From contig NZ_JADCKL010000006.1 of the NCBI RefSeq assembly GCF_014982975.1, positions 1 to 64,000 on the forward strand: a DNA stretch of 64,000 nt, in the 5' to 3' direction. The DNA comes from Claveliimonas monacensis. Lineage in GTDB: Bacteria; Bacillota; Clostridia; Lachnospirales; Lachnospiraceae. A program made the translations under genes and the position numbers. The notes under the pieces are model-generated. The model saw only the letters and a list, made by a program, of their open reading frames with translations, ran no database searches and was not told where the DNA came from. Within the stretch, counting starts at the first letter, position 1. The number at the start of each line of letters is the position of its first letter. Positions 1,149-11,845 of the stretch are shown here, in pieces.

Positions 1149-1457
1149 TCACTTTAATTTAAGTTTCTCTGGTATGCTCTTTCTTACATTCGTAATTTCT
1201 TTATTTAAATCTTTTATGTATTCTTTACACACATCTATATATAATCCCGTTTTATATTCTGAATTGTCTATAAATCTTAGTTCGACCGAATACTTTGTAA
1301 TCTCTGCAAGTAATTTTACAAATATACTTTTTAAATTATTTTGGCTCTCATCATCATTAAGACACACTTCCGAAACTTCCTCAAATTCAAATACTAAATA
1401 ATCTTTTTTTTCTCTTTTTTCTAGATGTACATTAATTACTTTGTTTTCCTGATTCAT
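1149..1457 (-). CDS. Small protein encoded with PHP-ABC ATPase, unknown function
   Basis: A 102-residue protein starting at ATG 1455-1457 (MNQENKVINVHL…), chosen because GAAAGGATATTT precedes it; a longer frame upstream has no such site. The start lies inside the last codons of the PHP-ATPase gene (26-nt overlap), so the two are probably translated in a coupled way. It is acidic in the middle and lysine-rich at the end, with no signal peptide or membrane segment. I do not recognise the family. Its tight coupling suggests a partner, adaptor or regulator of the ATPase. Confidence 0.65.
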   Translation of the reverse strand: MNQENKVINVHLEKREKKDYLVFEFEEVSEVCLNDDESQNNLKSIFVKLLAEITKYSVELRFIDNSEYKTGLYIDVCKEYIKDLNKEITNVRKSIPEKLKLK

Positions 1458-3570
1458 AAATATCCTTTCTATCATAAAATGCAGTTTTTCCGCCTTCAAG
1501 AGTATGCATACTTTCTTGAGTCCAATTTTTAGTATCTGTTTCATCCTCTATGTTTCTGAGTTCATCATAAAATGGATTGCCAATATATGTTTTATATACT
1601 CCATTTTCGTGAGTTCTCAATATACTAATATATGGAAGCGTACCCACTGCAATGTTAGCATTATGTGTTGCTATAATTACCGTTTTTCTTCGTTTTGCTA
1701 GATCTGTTAACCTGGGAAGTATATTAGATGTTATATATGAATTCCCCATTCCTAACTCTGGTTCATCTAAAATATACACATCACTTTCTGAATCCAATAA
1801 TTTCTGCATCAGTAAAATTCCTCTTTCCCCATTAGATGGCTTATAAATTTCTCCATTTTCCAATGCAGTTTCTTTAGATATTCCAATAAACGCTCCTATG
1901 TCTTTAATTCCATTATCAAAAAACTCCTGGAATTTTGATATTTCTTCTGATATATTCTCCCCTAAACATGCTTTCTTTATCTCGTCAATTACAGTTTTAC
2001 AATTTTTTAGAATAGTTATCCCCTGTTTAAATTCATCTGTACGCGAATTTTTTGTTAACATTCGATAACGTGTTTGAATATAAATATCACCTTTTTCTTC
2101 AAGATTTCCTAAGTATTCTCTCTCTATCTTATCAGTTGCAGAAAATGCACTGCATATCTCATCCACATTTTCAAACAATTTGAATCTTTCCATTGCAAAA
2201 TCGTAAAATCCTACACTACTAGGTTTAGATATTGTATCAGAACATTTATCCGCTATCGCTTTTATCTTATCAATACTCCAATTCGTCAGTTTAATACTTT
2301 TGTCACTATTCCATTTTTTTATTTTTGAATCATTAATATTATCACATAATTTTTCCAACAACTGCATTAAGGTTATGCAATCCTGTTCATTCAAATATTT
2401 TTCCATATCGATCTTTTTAAATGTTGATTCTGTGAATTCTTTTAAGTATTTATAATCAAGATCAAGTTTCCGATTACGCGCCCCCTCCTCAATATGTACA
2501 CTTTCTGTTATTTTCATTCTACCTTTATTTTTATTATTGTCCTTAGTTTCCATCCAACTTACATATTTTTCAAAAGATGTTGGCAACTCCTCTTTCCAAT
2601 TATAAAGATCTATAAACTGTTGTCGCATACTATCCAATTGAAGCTTCTCAGGTGTAGCTATTACATCATTGACCTTTAACATTTTTGAAAAATCAGCATC
2701 TTTTTCATTTCCTTTATAACTTTCCATTGCAATTCCATTTTCAATATAGTATTTCTTTAAAGATTCAAGGATCTCCGTTTTTCCCGTTCCTTTCTGTCCA
2801 AAAATAATATTAATATCTTCATAAAATGGTAACTTAAAATTTACTCTTTTATATGGCGACACAGTGATTTCCTTTTTCTTTTTTTGGTTAAGCAATGTAT
2901 CTATGATTTGTGTGTCCTTCTTTGCCAACAAACAAAACTGTTCAAATGTTTGAACTGGAAGTCTTATATCTGCAAACTTGCTAGTTTCATATTTATCCCA
3001 ATCCTGTACATCACTTCCTATAATAACACTGTAATCAAAATTTGAAAAAACTCCTAAACTTCGATAATCTGACGTTTCCTTAAATAATCGACTAGGATCT
3101 GGTAATAGTTCCCCTAATTCCTGAATATCTTCATCTGAAAGTTTTGGTTCCTTATGAAAATGTGGTATATAAATACAATCACATATTCCTAATGTTTCAT
3201 ATACTTTTTTCACACTAATCTGGAATTTATCTACATCTTCATCATTAATCAGTTCTTGCACTTGATCATTAAATAATTCTACATTTTTAGGATTAGCAAT
3301 CACTATCAAATGGCCTCTTTTTCCATTTCCAGTTTGATCTGTTTTCCCTATAATGTCCAGTTCTACTCCAGGCCATATATCACAATATCCTTCTGTAATT
3401 TTTTTAAACTCTTTATATTGATCATAATCAAATTGATTATGATTTGTTATTGCAACAATTTTAACCTCTGCTTCAATAATTTTTTGAAAAAATTTATCCT
3501 CTGTAACGTTTCTTGTATAAGCATCTCCCGTCTTCACTTTTTTCGTATGACAATGCAAATCTATTTTCAT
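1432..3570 (-). CDS. PHP-domain and ABC-type ATPase fusion (TrlF-like), candidate defence protein
   Basis: A 712-residue protein with RBS GGAGGAAACT before its ATG. The N-terminal PHP phosphoesterase domain (about 1-215) shows DLHCHT (4-9), TNHNQ (42-46), PGVELD (67-72), PHFH (136-139) and GSD (185-187); the last motif reads DVQ where DxH is usual. An ABC/SMC-type ATPase follows, with Walker A GQKGTGKT (258-265), a signature-like SNGERG (about 579-584), Walker B YILDEPE (about 599) and H-loop ATHNAN (about 634). The region between Walker A and signature is a long mostly helical insert. TrlF-family and PHP-SMC proteins of this architecture occur in mobile islands and are suspected nucleic-acid sensors linked to a nuclease or phosphoesterase. 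Substrate unknown. Very AT-rich, unlike the core genome. Confidence 0.75.
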   Translation of the reverse strand: MKIDLHCHTKKVKTGDAYTRNVTEDKFFQKIIEAEVKIVAITNHNQFDYDQYKEFKKITEGYCDIWPGVELDIIGKTDQTGNGKRGHLIVIANPKNVELFNDQVQELINDEDVDKFQISVKKVYETLGICDCIYIPHFHKEPKLSDEDIQELGELLPDPSRLFKETSDYRSLGVFSNFDYSVIIGSDVQDWDKYETSKFADIRLPVQTFEQFCLLAKKDTQIIDTLLNQKKKKEITVSPYKRVNFKLPFYEDINIIFGQKGTGKTEILESLKKYYIENGIAMESYKGNEKDADFSKMLKVNDVIATPEKLQLDSMRQQFIDLYNWKEELPTSFEKYVSWMETKDNNKNKGRMKITESVHIEEGARNRKLDLDYKYLKEFTESTFKKIDMEKYLNEQDCITLMQLLEKLCDNINDSKIKKWNSDKSIKLTNWSIDKIKAIADKCSDTISKPSSVGFYDFAMERFKLFENVDEICSAFSATDKIEREYLGNLEEKGDIYIQTRYRMLTKNSRTDEFKQGITILKNCKTVIDEIKKACLGENISEEISKFQEFFDNGIKDIGAFIGISKETALENGEIYKPSNGERGILLMQKLLDSESDVYILDEPELGMGNSYITSNILPRLTDLAKRRKTVIIATHNANIAVGTLPYISILRTHENGVYKTYIGNPFYDELRNIEDETDTKNWTQESMHTLEGGKTAFYDRKDIYESGKQSN

Positions 3571-3601: not shown

Positions 3602-4015
3602 TTAACCTATCACCATACCCCATTCATTCCAAAATCTATCATTTTTTAACTTGCATATATTTTTTTGTTTTTCTTCAGGCAAGGTACTCAACTCCCATAA
3701 TCGCATATATCCTCTACCACTATCAGAAACATTTAATTTTCTCATGTAAGTTACATTTTCTCTTACACTCGGATATCTCCAAGTGTTATCAATCTGTTAT
3801 CACATTATAAAATCAATTTTATCTGTATTTCCTTTTTCTTTCTCTAAAAAGATAATCGCAACTATCGCTATAAAAAATCCAACAATACAAATTACAGTCC
3901 CGCTAAAGGTTATTTTTGAGTTTACAACTCCTGTAAATCCATTAACATACCACCAATGCAAACTTAGATATTATTGTATAATTCCTATACCAATAACTAA
4001 ATGTGATTTTCCCAT
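3602..4015 (-). pseudogene. Decayed small membrane-protein gene or genes
   Basis: On the minus strand, direct translation gives a start (MGKSHLVIGIGIIQ) at 4015 that stops. A different frame then reads WWYVNGFTGVVNS… and contains a hydrophobic helix (VICIVGFFIAIVAIIFL) with a charged tail, and stops near 3810. A third open stretch (QINTWRYPSVRENVTYM…) runs to a TAA at 3602 without a start of its own. This pattern suggests one or two small genes broken by frameshifts. I found no family match. It could also be chance open frame in AT-rich DNA. Confidence 0.35.
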
Positions 4016-4064: not shown

Positions 4065-4523
4065 TTATTCACTTTTTATAAATGACCACGCATATTCTCT
4101 AGAATCCACGTTTTGTGCCGAAAACGCCGCATCACCATGCATTGTAATGTCGTAAATAATATAAGTATCTTGCAATTCTGCTTCTGATATTTCCAACATG
4201 GATTGATAGTTTCCTTTTCCATTTCCTTCATACTTTTTGGATAATACAATGGAATAGTCATTAACTGTACCTATATATCCTGTGTAAATGGAACCAGATG
4301 CATTATATGTCCAATACACTTTCCCATCTTCAAAAATCTCTACTTTTCTTCCTGCTTTAGCTTCCCAAGTTCCAACTAATTCATTTGGTACATTATCGAA
4401 AGATTCTATTACATCTGGATTACTTTTATTGTTTATACCATTAAGTTTTACTAATAATACTACGTTTCCAATGAGTGATATTACTAAAAGAATGGTTAGT
4501 ATCAATACTTTTCTATTTTTCAT
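4065..4523 (-). CDS. Exported membrane-anchored protein of unknown function
   Basis: 152 residues, start supported by GAGGAG eight bases upstream. A basic start and hydrophobic segment (about residues 7-26) form an uncleaved signal anchor without a lipobox. The rest is a small extracytoplasmic domain starting near 'NELVGTWEAKAGRKVEIFEDGKVYW', a pattern seen in lipocalin-like or beta-barrel domains that open with a 'GTW' strand. It stands between the mobility operon and the PHP-ATPase operon and is AT-rich, so it is probably cargo. Function unknown. Confidence 0.6.
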   Translation of the reverse strand: MKNRKVLILTILLVISLIGNVVLLVKLNGINNKSNPDVIESFDNVPNELVGTWEAKAGRKVEIFEDGKVYWTYNASGSIYTGYIGTVNDYSIVLSKKYEGNGKGNYQSMLEISEAELQDTYIIYDITMHGDAAFSAQNVDSREYAWSFIKSE

Positions 4524-4713: not shown

Positions 4714-6027
4714 TTACCTTGCTCCTCTGTCCATCTTTCGTCTCTGTGCCCGTTTCTGCTCCTTAAGCGCCTGTTCCCTCTGTCTCTCCGCCTGAACTAT
4801 TGTCTTAACAGTATCATGCCCCAATGCTTCCTTTACACGTTCAAAATCCTCTAAATTTTCTCTCAACATCCTGTTCTCATTCCAAAGTTCCTCTACACGA
4901 GTAGTAAGAGAATTAACCTTGTTCCCTGCCCTCTCGTACGACCTTTGTATATCGTTAAATCTTCTGGAAAGGTCGAAATAAGCCCGGTAGACTGACCGCA
5001 GTACCGTCACAATCTTCTTAATCAACGGTTTTGCTTTTTTCTCCCGATAGGATTTTCCTGTTTCCAGAGTTCCCGCTTCCGGCAATACTTCCTCTGGATC
5101 GGCAGAATATTTCTCGGCAAATCGTTCCATTTCTTTTACCATAGGCGCAATCTCCGTTAGCTTTTTCTCATATTGTGCCACATTCTTCTTTGCCTGTTCT
5201 GCCTTCTTATCGGCTTCTTTCCAACTTTCCCGAGCCGAAGATATGTCCTGCTCAATATTTTTCAAATGATCCAGCCATTTTTCATTTACTTCTTGCATAG
5301 TAGCATTATGCTCTTCTAAGTCCGCTTTCTGCTCTTCAAGTGCCGCCACTTCCTTTGCACGTTCCTGCTTTTCAAAATCCAACAAGGACAAATGCTTTTC
5401 ATGTGTGCCTTTCTGTTCCCATTCAATCCCGTGATCCAGCATAATTGAGGCAAGCTGCTGCTTTTCAGCCGCCACCCACTGATTTAATTCTGTCTCCATT
5501 CTCGTACCGCCTTTGAAACCAAGCGCTGACAATGCCTGTTTCAATGATACCCTTGTATCCAGACCACGCTTACTTCCTGTTGTATATGGTACAAAATCTA
5601 TATGCAAATGAGGTGTGGCCTCATCCATATGAAGATGAGCAGAAAACACTCTTAAGGTAGGATTTCTCCGCTGAAAATCCTTCATATATTCGTCTAGTAT
5701 CCTCGCTGCCATCTGTCCCTCTTTTGTTGTCGCTCCCATATTGTCTTTATCCCCAATCTGCAGGATAATCTCGTGGAATGGCTTTTCCTGCTTTCCAGAA
5801 CGGATCTTCTCATAATAATCTTCAATCTTTCGGTCTTTTCTAGTCTGTTTAGAATTATATCGATCAAGTGCCTCATCAAATAATTCATGGTACACTTCCC
5901 GGATATCCTGATTGCAGTATTCCACATTCCAGTAACTCCGTTTCGGATCTGTATTCTTTGCATGAAATTTTCTACTGTTATGGTTGACAGAACCTTTACC
6001 TGTCATAAAACTAATCGTTCTCTTCAA
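4714..6027 (-). CDS. mobV: MobV-family relaxase (Mob/Pre)
   Basis: 437 residues. The start is probably TTG with AGGAG upstream; the next ATG is seven codons in. The N-terminal relaxase domain opens with SFMTGKGSVNHNSR and carries the histidine cluster 'AHLHMDEATPHLHIDF' near residue 130, which binds the metal for nicking at oriT. A long coiled coil (about 220-300) and a basic C-terminal tail follow. MobV/Pre relaxases nick and mobilise small plasmids and IMEs with the help of a conjugative partner. It is the last gene of the mobility operon and lies just downstream of a palindrome-rich region that could be oriT. Confidence 0.85.
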   Translation of the reverse strand: MKRTISFMTGKGSVNHNSRKFHAKNTDPKRSYWNVEYCNQDIREVYHELFDEALDRYNSKQTRKDRKIEDYYEKIRSGKQEKPFHEIILQIGDKDNMGATTKEGQMAARILDEYMKDFQRRNPTLRVFSAHLHMDEATPHLHIDFVPYTTGSKRGLDTRVSLKQALSALGFKGGTRMETELNQWVAAEKQQLASIMLDHGIEWEQKGTHEKHLSLLDFEKQERAKEVAALEEQKADLEEHNATMQEVNEKWLDHLKNIEQDISSARESWKEADKKAEQAKKNVAQYEKKLTEIAPMVKEMERFAEKYSADPEEVLPEAGTLETGKSYREKKAKPLIKKIVTVLRSVYRAYFDLSRRFNDIQRSYERAGNKVNSLTTRVEELWNENRMLRENLEDFERVKEALGHDTVKTIVQAERQREQALKEQKRAQRRKMDRGAR

Positions 6028-6577: not shown

Positions 6578-7639
6578 TTATTCTGATAATATCCAAAACC
6601 ATTGGTTTCCCCGTTTGACCGAATCGATCTCCAGTTCCTGTTTTGCATTCCGCAGAGTTTTCTTCTTGATTCCCTGTTTGCTCGCTTCTTCCTCGATCTT
6701 TTTCTGTGCCATACCGCCATCAGCCAAAATATCCAACAGAAATTCCTTCGCTATCCGACTTTTTTGTCCTCTTGCATCTCCACTCAAAAGGTCATCTGCA
6801 CTGATATCATACTCTCCAATCCACTGAAATCCTGTTTCTTTGTCTAATCGGAATGCGACGGATTTTCCTTCCGGTGCAAGGGAACTTTTCACATGGCACA
6901 TTACCCTTGTCTCCGGTTCGTCCTTCAACCTCCCCACGATCAGGACACTTCTTGCCGCAGCTTGAAAATCAATGGATCCAAGGCCACGATAAGAAGATTT
7001 CCCATTGCTGTTTTTATTCATATGACCGATCAAAATAATCGCACAATGATATTTCTCTGCAAGGACTGCCATCCGCTTCATCAACGGACGAATTTCATTG
7101 GCTCGATGCATATCCACATCTGTTCCTAGAAATCCCTGTATAGGATCCAGCACCACCATTCTTGCTTTCGTTTGCATGATTGCTTCCTCAAGCCGGACAT
7201 CCACCATAGTTAATGGCTGTTCTCGATCATCGATGACCAGCACTCTGGAACAATCTGCCCCAGCCGCAAGCAGACGAGGTTTTATCGTATCCCCCAATCC
7301 ATCCTCTGCCGTCTGATAAATAACATTGACAGGCTGTATAGGGTTATCTTGCGATAACACTTCCTGTTTCAGATTCTCTTCGCTATCTTGCTGTGCTTCT
7401 TTTTGGGATTTCTTGTTCAACAAGATTGGTTCTCCTCTGGTCAGTTTAGCAATGATCTGAAGAACCATCGTTGTTTTTCCCTCTCCTGGATCCCCTTGTA
7501 TGATCGTAACTTTCCCAAAAGGAATAAACGGATACAACAGCCATTCTATCTGTTCCACTTTCACCGATTCCATGTTGATCAATTTCAGCTCCGGCTCTGA
7601 TCTTTTCCATTCTGCCTTCTTATTTTCTATCGTCTTCAA
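6578..7639 (-). CDS. RepA-like RecA-fold ATPase (helicase)
   Basis: 353 residues. The start used is TTG at 7639 behind AGGAGG; the first ATG is 22 codons inside and lacks a ribosome binding site. Walker A is GDPGEGKTT (about 49-57), Walker B-like 'MVVLDPIQGFL' near 150, and a 'GHMNKNS' motif near 200 follows, matching RSF1010 RepA/KaiC-like hexameric ATPases. A C-terminal winged-helix-like segment follows. RepA-like ATPases in IMEs are thought to unwind DNA for replication of the excised element. Placed between the MobC-like and relaxase genes. Confidence 0.75.
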   Translation of the reverse strand: MKTIENKKAEWKRSEPELKLINMESVKVEQIEWLLYPFIPFGKVTIIQGDPGEGKTTMVLQIIAKLTRGEPILLNKKSQKEAQQDSEENLKQEVLSQDNPIQPVNVIYQTAEDGLGDTIKPRLLAAGADCSRVLVIDDREQPLTMVDVRLEEAIMQTKARMVVLDPIQGFLGTDVDMHRANEIRPLMKRMAVLAEKYHCAIILIGHMNKNSNGKSSYRGLGSIDFQAAARSVLIVGRLKDEPETRVMCHVKSSLAPEGKSVAFRLDKETGFQWIGEYDISADDLLSGDARGQKSRIAKEFLLDILADGGMAQKKIEEEASKQGIKKKTLRNAKQELEIDSVKRGNQWFWILSE

Positions 7640-7830: not shown

Positions 7831-8001
7831 TCAAACAAACCGTCTTGTCGGAATCACTATAATCTCAAATCTGCTTCCATCCATCAATTCAATCAACACC
7901 ACATGATCTGACTCAAAATCCACAAGGATAGAGGCAATTTCTAATTTTTTAGAACGATTCAAGATTTCATAAACTTTGTTGACCATCTTTTTGGTTTTCA
8001 T
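7831..8001 (-). CDS. Small mobility-operon protein, unknown function
   Basis: 56 residues starting at the ATG behind GGGAGAAATACAG (MKTKKMVNKVYEIL…). It overlaps the end of the MobC-like gene by 35 nt, which argues for coupled translation. A basic first part is followed by a beta-rich part (DHVVLIELMDGSRFEIIVI). No known domain recognised. Confidence 0.55.
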   Translation of the reverse strand: MKTKKMVNKVYEILNRSKKLEIASILVDFESDHVVLIELMDGSRFEIIVIPTRRFV

Positions 8002-8332
8002 CTGTATTTCTCCCTTCCGCAAATCCATTCAAAATTTCCAACATGGTTCTGATCGGAGTAAATAATTCTTCTCCTGCATCATTCAATGTGTTCAGACGTT
8101 TTAATTCTGTCTCAATATCCCGGAGCTGCTTTCGAAACTGCACCAGCATCAATGGATTACCAACAGCTGTGATCTTTTGATATAAAACGCTTTCAATAAT
8201 GTACTCTTGTCTGGTTTGATATCCACAAAGTTTCACTCTCTTATCCAGTTCTTCATTTTCTTCAGGAGACATTCGAAAAGCAATTGTTACATTACGCCAA
8301 CGATTCTTTTTATCCATATTTTTTTCACTCAT
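7967..8332 (-). CDS. mobC: MobC-like relaxosome protein
   Basis: 121 residues from the ATG at 8330-8332, which overlaps the integrase stop codon and has GAGAGGATTC upstream. The N-terminus (VTIAFRMSPEENEELDKRVKLCG) is a ribbon-helix-helix type DNA-binding domain, followed by 'TRQEYIIESVL', characteristic of MobC/MbeC-family plasmid mobilization proteins that bind at oriT and help the relaxase. A coiled-coil tail follows. Its place in an operon with a MobV relaxase fits this role. Confidence 0.75.
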   Translation of the reverse strand: MSEKNMDKKNRWRNVTIAFRMSPEENEELDKRVKLCGYQTRQEYIIESVLYQKITAVGNPLMLVQFRKQLRDIETELKRLNTLNDAGEELFTPIRTMLEILNGFAEGRNTDENQKDGQQSL

Positions 8333-9410
8333 TCCATGAATCCTCTCTTTCCTCATTTAACCTGTCTGCCATATCTTTCTGTATCGTAGGAAATAAATGT
8401 GCGTATCGATATGTAATCTCAACACTTTCATGCCCTACTCTCTCTGCAATTGCCACAGCAGAATATCCCATATTAATTAGCAGCGATACGTGAGAATGCC
8501 GGAGATCATGGATACGGATTCGTTTGACACCTGACAGCTTTACTCCCCGATCCATTTCATGATGGAGATAACTTTTAGAAATCTGAAAGATTCGATCTGT
8601 TTCCTTCAGTCCATACAGCATACTTAAGTAACTTTCTAGCTCTTCACTCAAAAATTCCGGCATCACTATAATTCGATTACTTTTCGGTGTTTTAGGATCT
8701 GTTATGACATCTTTTCCCTCTAAGCGCTGATAAGATTTATTGATGCGTATAGTATGGGATCGAAAATCCAGATCTGCAGGTGTTAAAGCCAAAAGCTCCC
8801 CCATTCTCAATCCACACCAATAGAAAATCTCAAATGCGTAAAAGGATATGGGTTTATCTGCAACCGCCTCAATGAACTGTGTATACTCTTCTTTTGTCCA
8901 GAAAAGCATTTCCTTTGATTTTTCTTTTCCCATGGATCCCGCCTTACGTGCAACATTACTTTTCAAATCATAAAAGTTAACCGCATGATTTAAAATCGCA
9001 CTCATTTGATTGTGGATTGTCTTAAGATACACCTGCGAATATCCTTTTCCGTTAGCGTCTCTATGATTCATGATCATGTTCTGCCACTGACGGATATCTG
9101 CCGTCTTGATCTCCTGCAGTTTTCTGTCCGCAAAATACGGGAGAATTTTCTTATCGACAATGTGTTTTTTAGTCAGCCAGGTATTATATTTAATCCTGGG
9201 TTTAATATCGTTCAGATAAATATCCACAAAATCTCCAAATGTCATATCCAGACTTCTATTTTCCTTTAATTTGAAAGCCCTCTCCCAGTCTTGCGCATCA
9301 CATTTACGCTTAAATCCTCTCTTTGTCTTTTGCTTTCTGACACCTGTCCAATCCTTATAATAGGTGCGAACTTCATAAGTATTAGTCTTTTTGTTTTTAA
9401 TAACTGCCAT
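8325..9410 (-). CDS. int: Tyrosine recombinase / integrase
   Basis: 361 residues, the length of Tn916/phage-type integrases. An N-terminal arm-binding domain (VRTYYKDWTGVRKQKTKRGF) is followed by a SAM-like core-binding domain and the catalytic domain: Arg in 'GLRMGELLAL' (about 202), 'HDLRHSH' (HxxR, near 303), 'GHES' and Tyr in 'TYRYAHLF'. All RHRHY positions appear present, so it should be active. It catalyses integration and excision of the element, most likely at the guaA 3' end. First large gene of the mobility operon, 31 nt after the excisionase. Confidence 0.9.
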   Translation of the reverse strand: MAVIKNKKTNTYEVRTYYKDWTGVRKQKTKRGFKRKCDAQDWERAFKLKENRSLDMTFGDFVDIYLNDIKPRIKYNTWLTKKHIVDKKILPYFADRKLQEIKTADIRQWQNMIMNHRDANGKGYSQVYLKTIHNQMSAILNHAVNFYDLKSNVARKAGSMGKEKSKEMLFWTKEEYTQFIEAVADKPISFYAFEIFYWCGLRMGELLALTPADLDFRSHTIRINKSYQRLEGKDVITDPKTPKSNRIIVMPEFLSEELESYLSMLYGLKETDRIFQISKSYLHHEMDRGVKLSGVKRIRIHDLRHSHVSLLINMGYSAVAIAERVGHESVEITYRYAHLFPTIQKDMADRLNEEREDSWNE

Positions 9411-9770: not shown

Positions 9771-9818
9771 CTGTTCATGCTATAATAAGAGACAAGAACT
9801 GTGAAGGAGCAATCAAAT

Positions 9819-10250
9819 ATGACTGTTGGAGATAAAATCAGGAAATATCGGTTAGAACAAGGATATACCCAAAAAGAATTGGCCATAAAGGCAGGACTGA
9901 GTGAGTCAGCTGTAAGAAATTATGAACTGGGAAACCGCACCGCTTCCCAAGATCAATTAGAAAAAATTGCCAATGTATTAAAAATCAGCCCATTCGCACT
10001 GGCTGATCCAAACTTTGATACCTATATAAGTGTTATGCATTCCCTATTCGCACTGGAAGACCAGTATGGACTCCATGCCTATAGAGATGAATCCGGGGTG
10101 CCTCAACTGATGTTCAAGGATAAAGGGCACGATTCATTAAATATGCTGGATCAAGTTGGTGAATGGGCAGATATGTACCAGAAATACAGAAACGAAGAAA
10201 TTACGGAAGAGGAATACTTAGCCTGGAGAAGTAAGTACCCAAATAAGTAA
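9819..10250 (+). CDS. XRE-family repressor of the mobile element
   Basis: 143 residues from ATG 9819, chosen for AAGGAG nine bases upstream rather than the GTG at 9801. N-terminal Cro/CI-type HTH (about 1-60: 'KIRKYRLEQGYTQKELAIKAGLSESAVRNYE'), then a C-terminal part that may mediate dimerisation ('YQKYRNEEITEEEYLAWRSKYP'). It is transcribed away from the xis-int operon across the four-operator array, so it most likely represses excision and transfer and its own gene. No peptidase motif for RecA-type self-cleavage is seen. Confidence 0.85.
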   Translation: MTVGDKIRKYRLEQGYTQKELAIKAGLSESAVRNYELGNRTASQDQLEKIANVLKISPFALADPNFDTYISVMHSLFALEDQYGLHAYRDESGVPQLMFKDKGHDSLNMLDQVGEWADMYQKYRNEEITEEEYLAWRSKYPNK

Positions 10251-10275
10251 ACGACACTAAGGAGATTATGCTGAT

Positions 10276-11157
10276 ATGGAGAAAACAAATGACAGCATCA
10301 TTAAAAAAGCACAAACCGCTATTACAAAATCAAAAGATTCCATAGTAAATGTAATTGATGCTAATGGCAATGGTGAAATTGATATAGAAGATTTTATTAT
10401 TATTGGATTAAAAACTCCAGGCATAAAAGTGGATAGAAATGATTTTCTAAAAAAAGAACTTTTCAAAAATTATCCTCAAGATACCATCGATGACGCAATA
10501 GCCTATAACCCAGCACATGCAAAAATTCCTTCCAATGAGATAGATAGAATAGCAGACGAAGTTATTAAATACGAAAGGAACTGTGTTTCGGGTATTTCCG
10601 CGGCATTAGGTGTGCCTGGTGGTTTTGCTATGGCAGCAACAGTTCCGGCTGATATTGCACAATACTACGGATATATGTTGCGTGCAGCACAAAAACTTAT
10701 GTACTTATATGGTTTCCCTCAAATTGACACTGAAGAGAGAAATCAAAAGTTTGATTCCGAAACCATGAACACCTTAATCATTTGCTTAGGAGTCATGTAT
10801 GGTGTTCAAGGAGCTAATACCGCTCTAAAAGCAATGGCAACGGCCTTAGGAAAAGGTGTTGAAAAAAAATTGTTAAAAACCGCCCTTACTAAAGGCACAA
10901 TCTACCCAATTGTAAAAAGTGTTTCTAAATGGTTCGGTGTTAATATGACAAAACAAGTTTTTGCTGGTTTTTTCAAAAAGGCCATTCCTGTAGTTGGCGG
11001 AGTTATCGGCGGTGGAATTACATATCTGTCTTTTAAACCCTGTTGTGACAAATTGCGTTCTACCCTTCAAGACACACTGTTAAGTAATCCAAATTATCAT
11101 GCTACAGAAGAAGAAAAAAACATGGAAAAAGCCATTATAACTTTTTCCCTACAATAA
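10276..11157 (+). CDS. EcsC-family protein with EF-hand-like loop
   Basis: 293 residues. An EF-hand-like calcium loop DANGNGEIDIED occupies residues 28-39, with acids or Asn at positions 1, 3, 5, 9 and 12. The rest resembles EcsC-family proteins: 'GISAALGVPGGFAMAATVPADIAQYYGYMLRAAQKL' and Gly/Ala-rich amphipathic helices near 'FFKKAIPVVGGVIGGGITYLSF'. EcsC-type domains occur in mobile elements and may interact with membranes; their biochemical role is unclear. It follows the XRE gene by 25 nt and may share its transcript. An adjacent gene looks Abi-like, so a cargo/defence role is possible but unproven. Confidence 0.65.
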   Translation: MEKTNDSIIKKAQTAITKSKDSIVNVIDANGNGEIDIEDFIIIGLKTPGIKVDRNDFLKKELFKNYPQDTIDDAIAYNPAHAKIPSNEIDRIADEVIKYERNCVSGISAALGVPGGFAMAATVPADIAQYYGYMLRAAQKLMYLYGFPQIDTEERNQKFDSETMNTLIICLGVMYGVQGANTALKAMATALGKGVEKKLLKTALTKGTIYPIVKSVSKWFGVNMTKQVFAGFFKKAIPVVGGVIGGGITYLSFKPCCDKLRSTLQDTLLSNPNYHATEEEKNMEKAIITFSLQ

Positions 11158-11239: not shown

Positions 11240-11845
11240 ATGAAACATCAAGAATGGCGCTCTCATATACAGCGCCGAACAGATTTTGCAACCAGAATAA
11301 CTCACTTAACCAAATCTAATAATGGCTTAAGTGCTTTTCAAAATTTAATTAAAATCTTATCAGAAAAAAAATTATATGGTAGTACTCAAAAGTCTGGGTT
11401 TATAGTGGGTACGGAATCTGCGGTTTGCTTTCAAGACGTCCCCCTTTTGTCTCTTGCAGAAAATATTGAATATGAAAAAGAGCATTGTACAGGAAAAATA
11501 CGATATGAAGCTTATGGCTTACGTTTTAACAAATGCCATCTATATCAAAAAGGTGCACGACCTGTCATTTATGGGGAAACAGAATATCTAAAAGAAATAT
11601 TACCAGAAACCGAATACTGGCGAATTGTTAATCATAATCTAGCAGACGTTAATCATCTTATCGATTGGACACATGAACGTGAATGGAGAATTAAAGGTTC
11701 ATTGGAATTTGAATATAAAGATATAGAAATCATAGTTTATAGTGATGATGATTATCAAAATATGGTAAAATATTTCCAAGACAATAATCCTTCTGCCCTT
11801 ACAGAAATACACGGAATAATCCCCTTACAAAGTGTACTTAATTAA
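11240..11845 (+). CDS. AbiGi/DUF2971-like protein, possible abortive-infection component
   Basis: 201 residues with AAGAGGTGAACTAAT before the ATG. Segments 'LTKSNNGLSAFQNLIKILSEK', 'AVCFQDVPLLSL', 'YGLRFNKCHLYQKGARPVIYG' and 'DWTHEREWRIKG' resemble the pattern of AbiGi and DUF2971 proteins: a short 'F.DIPL' motif, then 'YG…K', 'G.NPV.Y' and 'E.EWR'. These families are linked to phage abortive infection and may have an ADP-ribosyltransferase-like fold. The match is by pattern only. It is the last gene before guaA, a usual spot for cargo in guaA-integrated islands. Confidence 0.55.
   Translation: MKHQEWRSHIQRRTDFATRITHLTKSNNGLSAFQNLIKILSEKKLYGSTQKSGFIVGTESAVCFQDVPLLSLAENIEYEKEHCTGKIRYEAYGLRFNKCHLYQKGARPVIYGETEYLKEILPETEYWRIVNHNLADVNHLIDWTHEREWRIKGSLEFEYKDIEIIVYSDDDYQNMVKYFQDNNPSALTEIHGIIPLQSVLN

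Follow-up and report, generated by a model that had tools for sequence, protein, structure and literature searches.

The window analysed here covers 64,000 nucleotides at the start of NZ_JADCKL010000006.1, a contig of 156 kb in the 3.0 Mb genome of Claveliimonas monacensis. Near its beginning lie two overlapping genes on the minus strand, here called A and B, which form a real and strictly conserved pair. A encodes a PHP phosphoesterase domain joined to an ABC-type ATPase, and B encodes a small protein. The pair is a second branch of the kind of two-gene unit listed in PADLOC-DB 2.0 as the candidate PDC-M49. We consider the chances even that the two proteins form one complex, in which an ATP-gated PHP nuclease has B as its obligate small subunit and which probably serves in defence. 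The layout of the pair is as follows.

1432 to 3570, minus strand: gene A, 712 residues; PHP phosphoesterase domain (residues ~1-215) and SMC/ABC-type ATPase (residues ~230-704)
1149 to 1457, minus strand: gene B, 102 residues, the partner of A; overlaps A by 26 nucleotides
1463 to 1470, minus strand: probable ribosome-binding site of B, AGAAAGGA, within the 3' end of A

Plausible ribosome-binding sites are found upstream of A and B alike. In comparison with three close relatives, synonymous codon differences exceed non-synonymous ones in both genes.

Conservation of the gene pair

Relatives of A were collected by scanning genome contigs with a four-sequence alignment of A, and the best 80 of 94 matches were kept. 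Together with one viral contig and a Photobacterium plasmid locus they make up 82 loci. A full-length A is followed by B at 75 of these, one of which (L010) has an in-frame stop in A, and no full-length A lacks B (0 of 75). At L087 A is frame-shifted with B in place, at L080, L084 and L085 A runs off the contig end, and at L019, L034 and L082 A is truncated and no B is seen; the sequence ends 307 and 211 nucleotides past the A stop at L034 and L082, respectively, so the missing B says little there. The B gene of L028 is cut by the contig end. A and B overlap in 74 of the 75 pairs, and all 74 overlaps are in one phase. Counted from the base that follows the stop of A, B starts at -26 (4 loci), -20 (12), -17 (5), -14 (32), -11 (16), -8 (5) or +2 (1); these offsets depend on the ATG chosen, the one nearest the A stop, whereas the phase is independent of that choice.

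Searches with single sequences detected A in three genomes out of the 295 in the order, one of them that of the window itself, and B in exactly these three. One of the contigs (L061) is probably the one matched in genome G139 of this survey, so the survey and the contig scan overlap. A survey of 287 genomes was also made in the Bacteroidota class of G690, a genome chosen because it has the pair; A was present in G690 only, with B adjoining it. The pair spans several phyla and is found in mobile and restriction contexts. The first-pass annotation had proposed a fixed two-gene unit, a proposal that would fall if the small gene were not conserved beside related ATPases. The small gene is conserved there, and the evidence for this is stronger than that annotation could know.

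The B proteins form a single family in an alignment of 76 rows, the window's among them, with a mean identity of 35%, compared to 44% for A. Scores of these rows on the family's HMM are circular, the HMM having been built from them. The predicted fold is beta-beta-beta-alpha-beta-alpha, and its weak structural neighbours include RNase H-like proteins. The libraries searched contain no convincing model for the family, and no DNA-binding domain was matched. A search of six sequences placed the plasmid-borne B proteins of Staphylococcus aureus, Staphylococcus epidermidis and Enterococcus faecium pKO1 in the same family as that of the window (expectation (E) values 2e-16 to 9e-16); those of S. epidermidis and S. 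aureus are identical. The B profile also matches helicase-like open reading frames at about 25 bits (L110, 1501-1659, and L111, 1093-1311), both in genomes of the G690 class without A. These matches are probably due to chance.

Motifs of A and kinship to PDC-M49

A has the PHP fold with the histidine and acidic metal ligands of the PHP phosphoesterase superfamily, and an ABC/SMC-type ATPase with the Walker A, signature, Walker B and H-loop motifs that the first-pass annotation had read in it. The positions of these motifs, with their conservation in 71 aligned family members, are the following.

3004 to 3012, minus strand: final PHP motif, D187-V188-Q189; residue 189 is Q in 36 members, H in 18, K in 8 and another residue in 9
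2776 to 2799, minus strand: Walker A, residues 258-265, GQKGTGKT; G258, G261, G263 and K264 invariant (71/71)
1825 to 1839, minus strand: ABC signature-like PSNGE, residues 578-582; S579, G581 and E582 invariant (71/71)
1756 to 1779, minus strand: Walker B, VYILDEPE, residues 598-605; D602 and E603 invariant (71/71)
1660 to 1668, minus strand: H-loop THN, residues 635-637; T635 and H636 invariant (71/71)

The alignments comprise 71 sequences, those of the window and of 70 loci; left out of the 82 were L007, L010, L019, L027, L028, L034, L079, L080, L082, L084, L085 and L087. The final D-x-H of the superfamily is replaced by DVQ in A. This alteration, pointed out in the first-pass annotation, is present but is no oddity of the window's copy, because glutamine is the commonest residue at the position and only 18 of the 71 members have histidine. 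Motif II of the PHP domain has asparagine for aspartate (TNH) in all 71 members. I[VL]AITNHN and [CA][DQ]IWPGVE served as search patterns for the 80 genome loci, and the invariance at residues 41-45 and 68-70 therefore follows in part from the selection itself. Neither pattern was used to find the eight PDC-M49A sequences compared, and all eight have TNH as well.

PDC-M49 is a candidate of two genes, represented by the models PDLC04678-04680 for A, a PHP-ATPase, and PDLC04681-04683 for B, of 94-135 positions (PDLC04681, named PDC-M49B, has 94). The design is the same as that of the window's pair: two overlapping genes in the same order, a PHP-ATPase and then a protein of about 100 residues, carried on plasmids. 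The best PADLOC match of the window's A is PDC-M49A (PDLC04680, 117.7 bits, E 1.4e-34). The homology extends from end to end, and a comparison of profiles gave an E value of 2.4e-46 over 626 columns at 19% identity. Thus the fixed unit proposed in the first-pass annotation stands, whereas its claim that such a unit would be new does not, since a candidate of the same design was already listed; the novelty of the pair is accordingly lower. No paper was found under the name PDC-M49 in the library searched.

The two groups are nonetheless separate. The best PDC-M49A scores are 101-124 bits in five members of the window's family compared to 699-1274 bits in the five PDC-M49 members scanned. A tree was built by a quick search from 34 of the 71 members together with the eight PDC-M49A sequences and one TrlF, whose branch is very long; in it the window-family A proteins and PDC-M49A form separate clades (99 each in the Shimodaira-Hasegawa-like approximate likelihood ratio test, SH-aLRT). 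The B proteins of the window's family have no detectable sequence kinship to PDC-M49B: none of 71 matched any PDC-M49B model at E values up to 10, and hhalign found nothing (probability 0.1). The best PDC-M49B sequence scored 7.4 bits on the B profile, where shuffled sequences reached 6.9 bits at the 99% level and 15.4 bits at most; the best B scored 14.1 bits on a PDC-M49B profile, with corresponding levels of 7.7 and 15.0 bits. The PDC-M49 layout itself was found in Phaeobacter (A 862 bits, B 106 bits) and Staphylococcus capitis (A 699 bits, B 79 bits), and in plasmids of Rhizobium and E. faecium. The PADLOC models confirm both of its genes in plasmids of Enterococcus casseliflavus, Staphylococcus equorum and Staphylococcus cohnii as well. 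A is broken in two members of this group, Enterococcus faecalis L099 and E. faecium L104.

Tools that require PDC-M49B would probably miss the loci of the window's family. We tentatively suggest that current models see a second lineage here through its ATPase only, the B family being absent from the libraries searched. It is conceivable, if somewhat doubtful, that the pair represents a second lineage of two-gene PHP-ABC ATPase defence with B as the obligate gate to a PHP nuclease under ATP control, so that one kind of ATPase would be served by two small regulators that are unrelated or hardly recognisable as related.

Proposed mechanism and alternatives

Several defence systems resemble the pair in part. 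Septu PtuAB combines a compact ABC-type ATPase with a small partner, as A and B do, but the partner is an HNH nuclease, and the PtuA models match A weakly and in part only (best E 8.2e-5). TrlF (NF045780, an AAA-like ATPase of 944 positions) has an N-terminal PHP domain and a P-loop ATPase, as A has, and is the best NCBIfam match of A (87.6 bits), below the cut-off of 350. However, the one TrlF compared, that of S. epidermidis, has TDH where the window's family has TNH, and its gene is followed by a recombinase gene and not by a B gene. Ppl is described in PMC12904381 as a single-gene anti-phage PHP-NTPase, in which a PHP domain and an SMC/ABC-like ATPase share one chain. The same two domains share one chain in A. 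The Ppl models (NF042955, PDLC02208) are 882-894 positions long and represent a single gene, whereas the window's unit has two; A scores 29.5 bits on NF042955, over residues 569-665 only, and does not reach the curated cut-off of 1000. WonAB of the Vibrio cholerae WASA-1 prophage is also a two-gene ABC-ATPase unit, and according to PMC12137116 defence needs both parts and the nuclease partner depends on the ATPase for its toxicity. There the nuclease is the separate WonB, of the PD-(D/E)xK type, and the term "PHP" is absent from the main text of that paper. No report on a PHP-ATPase with a small partner was among the literature matches listed. The pair adds a clean two-component case to the PHP-ATPases, the studied example found here being the single-gene Ppl, and defines a conserved family of small proteins.

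By analogy, A is taken to be an ATP-gated PHP nuclease and B its fixed regulatory subunit. A would be a compact ABC/SMC-head ATPase bearing a PHP metal-dependent phosphodiesterase at its N-terminus. Binding of ATP would bring two A heads together through the invariant Walker A and signature motifs, and this pairing would position or gate two nucleic-acid-cutting PHP sites, in the manner of the single-gene Ppl. Since the B gene begins within the end of A, the two proteins would be made in step. B would bind A and set when, or on what, A acts. The unit would most likely shield its host or its carrying element from phages or from rival elements. A role in defence is probable, given the kinship to PDC-M49 and Ppl-like proteins, the sparse distribution, the mobile context and the neighbouring genes. 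If both branches protect, comparing the two B families on homologous ATPases would point to the role of the small subunit.

Three observations weigh against this proposal. A matched none of 50,697 phage records. The equivalent of H137 is absent in four of the eight PDC-M49A sequences (L103, L105, L106 and L107, which have FELGKS or FEMGKS for PHY); their residues suggest a changed metal site in this subgroup, and the PHP domain need not be active in all members. Finally, A is broken, shortened or interrupted while B is intact in five places: L087, L010, E. faecium pKO1, S. epidermidis SAP105A and S. aureus CP030480, the last three comprising L008, L098 and L100. This pattern fits a toxin-antitoxin logic or simply the greater length of A. 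Both these breaks and the lack of any full-length A without B speak for B restraining a toxic nuclease A that is freed by infection or loss of the element. Yet A is about seven times longer than B, and by length alone five breaks would all fall in A about half the time; the identical B proteins of S. epidermidis and S. aureus perhaps reflect a single break event. Furthermore, B has no match to a DNA-binding domain and is conserved nearly as well as A. Such an arrangement is unlikely.

A non-cutting PHP domain that senses nucleotides or metal, with the effector step in B or in a host protein, is improbable, but the asparagine of motif II, the loose final ligand, the loss of the H137 equivalent in half of the PDC-M49A sequences and the RNase H-like neighbours of B are all in line with it. 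A unit for DNA repair or metabolism with no part in conflict is likewise improbable. PHP proteins such as EndoQ do act in repair, and many repair proteins contain ABC/SMC heads, but A is rare (apart from the window's own genome, 2 of 294 in the order; apart from G690, 0 of 286 in the Bacteroidota class), crosses several phyla in mobile and restriction contexts, and is homologous to a defence candidate. The pair might, with a modest probability, be simply a diverged member of PDC-M49, its B a strongly diverged PDC-M49B, which would be compatible with the ATP-gated nuclease mechanism. The shared order, size, overlap and TNH motif and the homology of A speak for this, and when each B family is scored on the profile of the other, the best scores rank at roughly the top 1% of shuffles. 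Single shuffles, however, reach 15 bits, above every real cross-match, and the failure of the PDC-M49B models and of hhalign to connect the B families, together with the separate clades of A, argues against it.

Carrying element and neighbouring genes

The genes of the carrying element, identified by family matches, and a gene remnant next to A all lie upstream of A on the same strand.

4714 to 6027, minus strand: MobV-type relaxase (Mob_Pre)
6578 to 7639, minus strand: AAA_25 (RepA/DnaB-like) ATPase
7967 to 8356, minus strand: NikA/MobC-like mobilisation protein
8325 to 9410, minus strand: tyrosine integrase
3608 to 3784, minus strand: DUF6602 remnant, the last 59 residues of the gene (68% identity)

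At L010, a close copy in Anaerostipes, the same side of the operon carries DNA that resembles a portion of the relaxase region, at 71% over 462 columns. L002/L112, L011, L012 and L013 have an intact DUF6602 gene immediately upstream of A, and this intact form has NucC/PD-(D/E)xK-like matches in PADLOC. Among the neighbours of A loci, matches to defence models at E < 1e-10 include type II methyltransferase (3), SoFic (2), NucC-like (2), a restriction enzyme, PD-T7-3, DolB, TIR and candidate defence models. This tally, which has no control set and counts matches per family rather than distinct proteins, covers 103 immediate neighbours of 100-560 residues, with 25 of 112 families listed. The neighbours were drawn from 646 open reading frames collected after removal of eight duplicate, broken or plasmid loci.

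Between the remnant and the relaxase, a gene of 152 residues (4065-4523, minus strand) has a hydrophobic, lipoprotein- or membrane-like N-terminus and two weak NCBIfam matches only. Adjoining the integrase on the opposite strand (9801-11157, plus strand) are an XRE-type regulator and then a gene with a strong match to the PADLOC candidate PDC-S30 (332 bits; weak EcsC in Pfam). An open reading frame of 201 residues (11240-11845, plus strand) has weak matches to AbiGi (E 3.9e-5) and phrog_13416.
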